Source: an uncultured Latescibacterota bacterium (GTDB lineage Bacteria > Latescibacterota > UBA2968). Taken from it: a stretch of 64,000 nucleotides of DNA. The notes below the pieces were generated by a model. The model did not search any database. It saw only the letters and a program-made list of their open reading frames with translations, and was not told the origin of the DNA. Positions 62,892 to 64,000 of this stretch are shown here, piece by piece. Numbering within the stretch: position 1 is the stretch's first letter; each line of letters begins with the position of its first letter. The position numbers and the translations under genes are program-made. The DNA lies in NCBI GenBank assembly GCA_951812755.1, contig OX638329.1, positions 4,038,522 through 4,102,521 on the forward strand, given 5' to 3'.

Positions 62892-63323
62892 CTATAAATC
62901 AATAGGCTCAGGTGACTGAGCCTGGTGTGGGTGCTCTGGCCCGGCATAAATACGGACCTTTTTGATCATCTGTCGCCCCAACTTGTTGTGAGGCAACATG
63001 CCCCGAATCGCGTGCTCGAGTACAAACGTGGGGCGCTTTTCCAGCGCGTCTTCCAGCGTTTGCTTCTTAAGCCCGCCGGGATATCCACTATAGCTCGTAT
63101 AAACCTTTTGCTGGGCTTTGTTATTGCCCTTCACCTGAATTTTTTCGGCATTTACAATAACCACATGATCCCCTGTATCAACATGGGGAGTATAAAAAGG
63201 CTTGTGTTTGCCGCGCAAAATTCTGGCAACGCCACTGGCAAATCGCCCGAGCACCTTGCCTTCTGCATCGGCGACATACCAGGTCTGTTCAACATCATCT
63301 TTTTTGGCACTAGGTGTCATCAT
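62892..63323 (-). CDS. rplM: 50S ribosomal protein L13
   Basis: The 143-residue protein matches L13: [50 protein letters not shown], then [42 protein letters not shown] and the C-terminal [14 protein letters not shown]. The ATG pair at 63318-63323 has no close SD. The nearest strong SD is 38 bp upstream and belongs to a miniature ORF that ends on the rplM start (see 63320-63355). Confidence 0.97.
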
Positions 63324-63526: not shown

Positions 63527-63549
63527 AAAAAATCGCCAATATGGCAGAT
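63527..63549 (-). terminator. Rho-independent terminator of the peptide/RNA unit
   Basis: On the minus strand the stem ATC(T)GCCA / TGGCGAT has one bulged T and a three-base loop, followed by five or six T. It would give a transcript of about 160 bases from the promoter at 63696-63724. Confidence 0.65.
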
Positions 63550-63563
63550 AACAAACCGCTCAA

Positions 63564-63644
63564 TGGCTGTCTTGGATTGCCAGGTGCGCTACCATTCGAG
63601 ATGCTATACCCCGCTCCTGGCAGAGGCGCACCTAACGACAGCCA
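63564..63644 (-). ncRNA. Structured RNA with competing helices downstream of an 11-codon ORF
   Basis: Two nested perfect stems are seen: TGGCTGTC / GACAGCCA (63637-63644 with 63564-63571) and AGGTGCGC / GCGCACCT (63626-63633 with 63582-63589). A third helix, TGCCAGG / CCTGGCA (63616-63622 with 63578-63584), competes with the second because both use the AGG at 63582-63584. Mutually exclusive helices are the hallmark of switches. I could not match it to a known riboswitch, tRNA, tmRNA or ribozyme. Confidence 0.5.
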
Positions 63645-63667
63645 CCTCCACTGGTCATTTCACTCAT
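63632..63667 (-). CDS. 11-codon ORF (MSEMTSGGGCR) with strong SD
   Basis: ATG at 63665-63667 follows AAAGGAGG at 7 bp spacing. The frame ends at TAG 63632-63634, where the second RNA stem begins, and its last codons lie in the first stem. The product is rich in Gly and Ser with a single Cys. It may be a leader peptide whose translation decides the RNA fold, or a small active peptide. Confidence 0.5.
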   Translation of the reverse strand: MSEMTSGGGCR

Positions 63668-63695
63668 TCGACCACCTCCTTTCTTGTGTGGTTCC

Positions 63696-63724
63696 AATAT
63701 AGCGCATGCAAGGGCGAAAGTCAA
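63696..63724 (-). promoter_or_regulatory. Consensus sigma-70 promoter for the peptide/RNA unit
   Basis: On the minus strand TTGACT (63719-63724), a 17-bp spacer, and TATATT (63696-63701). Transcription would begin near 63689. It lies 19 bp past the stop of the YWTD gene, which itself is on the same strand. Confidence 0.7.
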
Positions 63725-63743: not shown

Positions 63744-64000
63744 TTAGAAGCAGCATAAGGCAATCCCAGATGGCCGATCCAATCCCACGGTAACGAGATC
63801 TTCAACATCTGAACCATCTGTGTTCGCACATTGAATTTTAGACGTGCCATAGTTGTCATAGTCCCCCCAGTACATCTTCCTTTTGACGACATCCAGAGCA
63901 ATCCCAGATGGCCGATCCAATCCCACGGTAACGAGATCTTCAACATCTGAACCATCTGTGTTCGCACATTGAATTTTAGACACACCAGCCCCCTTATAGT
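63744..64000 (-). CDS. YWTD-type beta-propeller protein (3' end, N-terminus outside window)
   Basis: The frame is open to the right edge, so only the last 85 or so residues are seen. Each unit reads SKIQCANTDGSDVEDLVTVGLDRPSGIAL and then the YWTD-like KMYWGDYDNYGT. YWTD repeats form six-bladed propellers as in LDL-receptor-like proteins. The two units are identical. The protein stops at GIALCCF, in the middle of a blade, so its C-terminus looks truncated. Confidence 0.75.
   Translation of the reverse strand, partial: YKGAGVSKIQCANTDGSDVEDLVTVGLDRPSGIALDVVKRKMYWGDYDNYGTSKIQCANTDGSDVEDLVTVGLDRPSGIALCCF
63760..63981. repeat. Two identical 84-bp blocks with 138-bp period
   Basis: 63760-63843 and 63898-63981 are identical over 84 bp. 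This is a recent tandem duplication of a YWTD blade (46 residues). Confidence 0.95.

Follow-up and report, generated by a model that had tools for sequence, protein, structure and literature searches.

A predicted translated small RNA in Latescibacterota that aligns with the Rfam family Ms_IGR-5

Results

A short-ORF element upstream of rplM

The window, a 64,000-nt stretch of DNA from an uncultured Latescibacterota bacterium, carries on its minus strand a compact element immediately upstream of the ribosomal protein gene rplM (Table 1). The near-consensus promoter, Shine-Dalgarno (SD) sequence, ATG and 11-codon ORF proposed in an initial annotation are all present at this locus, as are the two nested stems, here called P1 and P2; together with a terminator they make up the discrete one-strand unit that had been described. 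The leader between the promoter and the SD is very short, and the SD, AGAAAGGAGGTGGTC, is complementary to the 16S tail of the same genome, GGCUGGAUCACCUCCUUUCUA, with one G-U pair. A search of the genome that contains the window found no other copies and no dispersed repeat; the element is single-copy.

Directly 5′ of the promoter, positions 63744-64000 of the minus strand hold a frame with tandem near-identical repeats, SKIQCANTDGSDVEDLVTVGLDRPSGIALDVV, which we take to be of the YWTD/beta-propeller type; the sequence 5′ of the promoter varies among members of the genus. An 8-bp hairpin, AGGCTCAGTCACCTGAGCCT, lies at the rplM end, just 5′ of the rpsI SD (62904-62923, minus strand).

Table 1 Features of the element and its downstream neighbour in the window
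Feature	Position	Strand	Remarks
Sigma-70-type promoter, TTGACT-N17-TATATT	63724-63696	-	10/12 consensus matches; both hexamers kept order-wide
Very long SD, AGAAAGGAGGTGGTC	63684-63670	-	Pairs with the genome's own 16S tail
11-codon ORF, MSEMTSGGGCR	63667-63632	-	ATG at 63667; stop UAG at 63634-63632; ORF in 21/21 order members
Internal SD-like GAGGUG	63648-63643	-	8 nt 5′ of stop codon; invariant in alignment A1
P1 5′ arm, GGUGGCUGUC	63646-63637	-	Within ORF; covariation support
P2 5′ arm, GUUAGGUGCGC	63636-63626	-	Contains stop codon; fold-predicted
CAUCUC, apical part (loop) of P2	63603-63598	-	Complementary to GAGAUG of terminator hairpin; order-specific
P2 3′ arm, GCGCACCUGGC	63589-63579	-	Fold-predicted
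One-sided bulge AAUCCAA (7 nt), 3′ strand, between P2 and P1	63578-63572	-	AAUC common to several phyla
P1 3′ arm, GACAGCCAUU	63571-63562	-	Covariation and pair-probability support
Weak terminator-like hairpin, 5 bp	63546-63534	-	Hairpin with U-run only in the window's genus
Intrinsic terminator, GCGCCGCAC...GUGUGGCGC-UUUUUU	63492-63440	-	Order-wide conservation
GGAGAUG in internal loop of terminator hairpin	63483-63477	-	Third SD-like motif in the order
TTGACA of separate promoter-like site for rplM	63426-63421	-	3′ of terminator; kept in relatives
rplM (L13), first gene of rplM-rpsI-rpsB-tsf	62892-63323	-	Neighbour, not part of the RNA

Predicted fold and terminator

The window RNA has a predicted folding energy of -62.1 kcal/mol, compared with -49.8 kcal/mol for shuffled sequences (z = -3.3), and none of 200 shuffles was as stable. 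P1 (outer) and P2 (inner) are nested and stacked, with the last codons of the ORF in P1 and the stop codon in P2. The initial annotation had also proposed a two-state RNA in which a competing stem, GCCAGG:CCUGGC, provides the alternative. For this stem the computed probability is 0.00, whether the RNA is free or has a ribosome-sized block at the stop codon, and switching through it is therefore not supported.

The hairpin that had been read as a terminator about 160 bases from the start site does exist, but its combination with a U-run is confined to the window's genus. The terminator conserved order-wide lies further downstream (Table 1), which gives a predicted transcript of about 250 nt rather than 160. 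Pair probabilities of its stem are 0.98-1.00 in the free and the ribosome-blocked models, with the outermost pair at 0.80 in the free RNA. Since the terminator forms in both the closed and the ribosome-opened state, the change of state is predicted to leave transcription of the next gene unaffected.

Complementarity between CAUCUC in P2 and GAGAUG in the terminator hairpin occurs in nearly all members of the order, where both motifs show hardly any variation. In family f2 copies they are flanked by an A-U pair, in genome G012 (L054) by a U-A pair, and the two motifs are absent together from G011 (L041). On these small numbers, CAUCUC:GAGAUG may be an order-specific long-range contact. Around the start codon, pairing tends to form between the 3′ half of the SD and GGACC, which lies immediately 5′ of GAGGUG; the longest helix measures 5.5, compared with 4.4 after shuffling.

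A compact structure followed by a terminator, together with a conserved AAUC bulge, is also what a metabolite riboswitch with the P1/P2 core as its aptamer might look like. However, the element has no consistent downstream gene (see below), its P2 domain is variable, its stop codon lies within the core, and the competing stem is not predicted. We regard a riboswitch as extremely improbable.

Conservation in the order and the relation to rplM

A search with an RNA model found the element in each of the 21 genomes searched in the window's order, with a weak second match in three. In 19 of these it lies 5′ of rplM and co-directional with it: all 11 genomes of the genus, two of the same family (G013 and G014) and six of a second family. 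In the remaining two, which represent two genera (G011 and G012), it is found 3′ of a peptide-transporter permease gene with no rplM beside it; the rplM of G011 is on a different contig that lacks the element, and a search of the G012 assembly found no rplM. In the other classes and families of the phylum, no copy was found before rplM. Weak matches (20-25 bits) of our covariance model R1, described below, in family f4 of the class were not accepted.

The promoter, SD, ATG, TSGGGC[RS], UAG, P1, P2 and terminator are kept across the order, while codons 2-4 vary (MSEM, MIIK, MIKT, MTDM); within the window's own genus there is almost no variation in the element. Conservation in relatives, one of the checks suggested in the initial annotation, was thus borne out for both the ORF and the stems. 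Across phyla, neighbours are random, the orientation of the downstream gene is 53:50, and no conserved neighbour was found beyond close relatives; because gene calls in this comparison were crude, product names were left unused. The element does lie upstream of a ribosomal operon, as had been stated, but we conclude that this adjacency is lineage-specific synteny of this order only.

These data bear on whether the element is a cis-acting leader-peptide attenuator of rplM-rpsI, with translation of the ORF choosing between the terminator and read-through. Its co-directional position directly 5′ of rplM in the 19 genomes is in keeping with such a role, and a similarly built leader precedes arfB in Rhodobacteraceae. 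However, the terminator stem is predicted to form whether or not a ribosome block is present, with no mutually exclusive anti-terminator; rplM has a promoter-like site of its own 3′ of the terminator; G011 and G012 carry the RNA away from rplM; and other phyla show no consistent operon association. Given the synteny, the terminator and the separate promoter-like site, we reject cis-control of rplM and consider an attenuator very unlikely.

The element aligns with RF02471 and is widespread

Rfam returned no match for the window copy at the gathering threshold. With an E-value threshold there was one match, to the full model of RF02471 (Ms_IGR-5), at 38.3 bits (E = 2e-7 for 341 nt), below the Rfam cut-off of 45 bits. 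That cut-off is passed by the copy in G013, of the same family (46.6 bits), and by a copy on a Zixibacteria contig (55.9 bits). The conserved 5′ SD block, GAGGUGGCUG, UAG and P2 of RF02471 are all present in the window copy. We conclude from these alignments that the element is the Latescibacterota member of an RNA class held in Rfam only as RF02471 (Ms_IGR-5, 'Actinobacteria sRNA'). It is therefore not undescribed at the family level, contrary to the initial annotation, although its distribution, ORF geometry and P1 exceed the Rfam entry and the papers that we found. Actinobacterial copies have been reported as discrete small transcripts (PMC8079986, PMC8780764, PMC10454040), among them those of S. 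lividans and S. avermitilis (PMC8079986, PMC8780764), and the homologues of both M. abscessus and M. smegmatis carry ribosome footprints (PMC4974804). Our literature search found no paper on the function of Ms_IGR-5 or on the peptide core TCEVAAR.

In a 386-genome sample, the RF02471 model matched unrelated genomes, three of them above the cut-off (G308, G288 and G111); it had no match in 14 well-known control genomes. One copy above the cut-off is present in 30 of the 31 genomes of the family of G308, which is probably actinobacterial, judging from the model scores; MIDCRTREVAAS is an example of the peptides encoded by the inspected copies. A scan of named genomes for the layout pattern identified the element in Actinobacteria, Acidobacteria, Zixibacteria, Sumerlaeota and Binatia, and further in Deinococcota (Truepera), Planctomycetota, Armatimonadetes, one Nitrospirae and one Deltaproteobacteria assembly; the taxon names used here come from the deposited records, many of them metagenome assemblies. 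Outside the phylum, the covariance model R1, built here, matched about 20 of the roughly 320 genomes sampled (E < 1e-4), and also loci outside its training set in Acidobacteria, Truepera, Binatia and further Actinobacteria.

P1 covaries across phyla

The covariation check suggested at the outset gave a positive result for the outer stem. On average 4.48 of the five inner pairs of P1 are formed, compared with 4.01 +/- 0.07 after shuffling, and none of 5000 shuffles reached the observed value; P1 is paired in 91.6% rather than 87.8% of cases, and its covariation score was reached in 0 of 500 shuffles, which correct only in part for relatedness. Variants across phyla include GGUGGCUG:CAGCCACC, GGUGACUG:CAGUCACC, GGUGGUUG:CAACCACC and GGUGUCCG:CGGACACC, and P1 covaries jointly with the actinobacterial copies. 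Within the order, G008 has Asp in place of Gly9 (GAC for GGC), together with a matching C-to-U change in the 3′ arm of P1. The GGUG:CACC half of P1 is mostly invariant. By our reading of its structure line, Rfam instead pairs the SD of RF02471 with a segment after GAGGUG and has no covarying P1. The cross-phylum alignment thus indicates that P1 is a new core helix, absent from the Rfam structure.

The RNA and its stop position are better conserved than the peptide

Among 101 unique elements, complementarity between the SD and the 16S 3′ end extends over 14-20 nt, G-U pairs included. The scan pattern demanded 13 SD bases, so this length distribution is biased, but copies found by Rfam, free of that requirement, show the same lengths. 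The ORF is 10-16 codons long across the class. With the ORF taken from the first start codon after the SD, and with neither ORF nor stop required by the pattern, 86 of the 113 unique scan loci place the stop codon exactly 8 or 9 nt downstream of GAGGUG, a count that becomes 86 of about 96 when Rhodobacteraceae are set aside; the exceptions are mostly of the Rhodobacteraceae group, with the stop at +26. The stop codon is UAG in 118 of 145 entries (redundancy included). Most phyla read GAGGUG as GAG-GUG (EV). Others read it as xGA-GGU-G, giving TSGGGC in Latescibacterota, RGG in Planctomycetes and SGG in Truepera and some Actinobacteria. Since the frame differs among phyla and the stop position does not, we conclude that the RNA and the stop position are more conserved than the peptide.

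Three loci from Truepera and an actinobacterium (L089, L135 and L137) lack a correctly placed, in-frame ATG, GTG or TTG; they have an in-frame AUU at the usual distance from the SD, which suggests that translation of the short ORF starts there. Four Planctomycetes loci (L079, L095, L101 and L105) encode a third peptide core, SxQRGG, and have weak model scores (23-26 bits); a search of these copies did not clearly identify P1.

Could the element be a micropeptide gene, whose 11-aa product (TSGGGC[RS], TSEVAxR elsewhere) is functional and whose RNA structure controls its own translation? The ORF is intact in every member of the order and has a strong SD, homologues carry ribosome footprints (PMC4974804), and the TS-EV and TSGGGC cores recur, so there may be some selection on the peptide. 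However, phyla differ in the frame in which they read this GAGGUG (EV, GGG, RGG) but share the stop position, the initial codons are free to vary, and the Gly9-to-Asp change comes with a compensating change in P1. A small peptide gene, which the initial annotation had offered as one possibility, is decidedly unlikely as the main role.

The long SD complementarity, the internal SD and, in this order, the third SD-like GGAGAUG would also suit a passive decoy for ribosomes or the 16S tail, which titrates 30S subunits as a sponge would and does not switch. Such a sponge would need neither a stop codon at a fixed distance nor a covarying helix that spans the end of the ORF, and a single-copy gene would require very high expression. 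We consider a sponge unlikely.

Discussion

We propose, with about even confidence, that the element is a stand-alone translated small RNA that is opened by a ribosome reaching its stop codon, an occupancy switch rather than a device for cis-control of rplM. The SD should recruit ribosomes very efficiently, and the ORF is about as long as one ribosome footprint. Because the P1/P2 core includes the end of the ORF and the stop codon, its fold is incompatible with a ribosome at that place. Ribosome-free RNA would close into P1/P2. A ribosome loaded by the SD would translate the 10-16 codons to the stop; once the stop codon occupies the A site, the distance from GAGGUG to the P-site codon would be 5-6 nt. 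As this is the spacing of an initiation SD, the geometry suggests that the terminating ribosome can be held there. While held by SD pairing, it would keep the core open and expose the P1 3′ arm, the AAUC bulge and the 3′ domain. The opened RNA might then act in trans, or by holding ribosomes, and so report on or buffer either the availability of ribosomes or termination. The random neighbours across phyla likewise suggest action in trans or on the ribosome itself.

A single-copy RNA that is kept through one order and through a family of another phylum, and whose design centres on the recruitment of ribosomes and a fixed stop, is likely to have a basic role in translation control. More tentatively, and at less than even confidence, we suggest that the class is a housekeeping-type RNA, ancient and very widespread, and serves as a sensor of ribosome availability or translation termination, with a ribosome parked at the stop by the internal SD and the open RNA acting on a further partner. 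The only record that we found is an actinobacterial sRNA entry without a function, and the class is present in many more phyla. The cross-phylum alignment yields a core helix, a fixed ORF geometry and clear mutants (start, stop position, P1 and internal SD), by which the role becomes testable in ordinary laboratory actinobacteria.

Like leader-peptide attenuators of the trp/leu type, the element has a short ORF overlapping RNA stems and a terminator downstream; unlike them, it has no regulatory codon run, anti-terminator or consistent downstream operon, and a separate promoter-like site lies 3′ of its terminator. It shares with L13-type ribosomal protein leaders its position before rplM-rpsI in this order, but it is absent before rplM in G011 and in other classes and families, and present elsewhere without rplM. 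As in dual-function (coding and regulatory) small RNAs, a terminated small transcript carries an ORF; here, however, no target pairing region was identified, and the conserved core coincides with the end of the ORF and the stop codon.

The Rhodobacteraceae leader lies about 170-240 nt 5′ of arfB at loci L073 (7535-7760), L098, L118, L124 and others; arfB encodes a ribosome rescue factor with GGQ. The leader has the same SD, a 17-18 codon ORF (MSxEVLERGVGTVxExxx) and CCACCUCC, able to pair with the SD. Because of its scores (18-26 bits), longer ORF and stop at +26, we keep it as an analogue rather than a member, possibly a related or convergent ribosome-responsive leader. UpsM of R. sphaeroides was considered and not equated with the element.

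The closest comparison is with RF02471 itself. The window ORF reads GAGGUG as GG and not EV, its spacing from SD to GAGGUG is shorter than in the RF02471 consensus, and it has an extra 3′ domain. The two share the 5′ block ACACA-GAAAGGAGGUGGUC, GAGGUGGCUG, UAG, P2, AAUC and CAGYCACC in a full-model alignment, and both occur as one copy per genome and as a separate transcription unit (PMC8780764).
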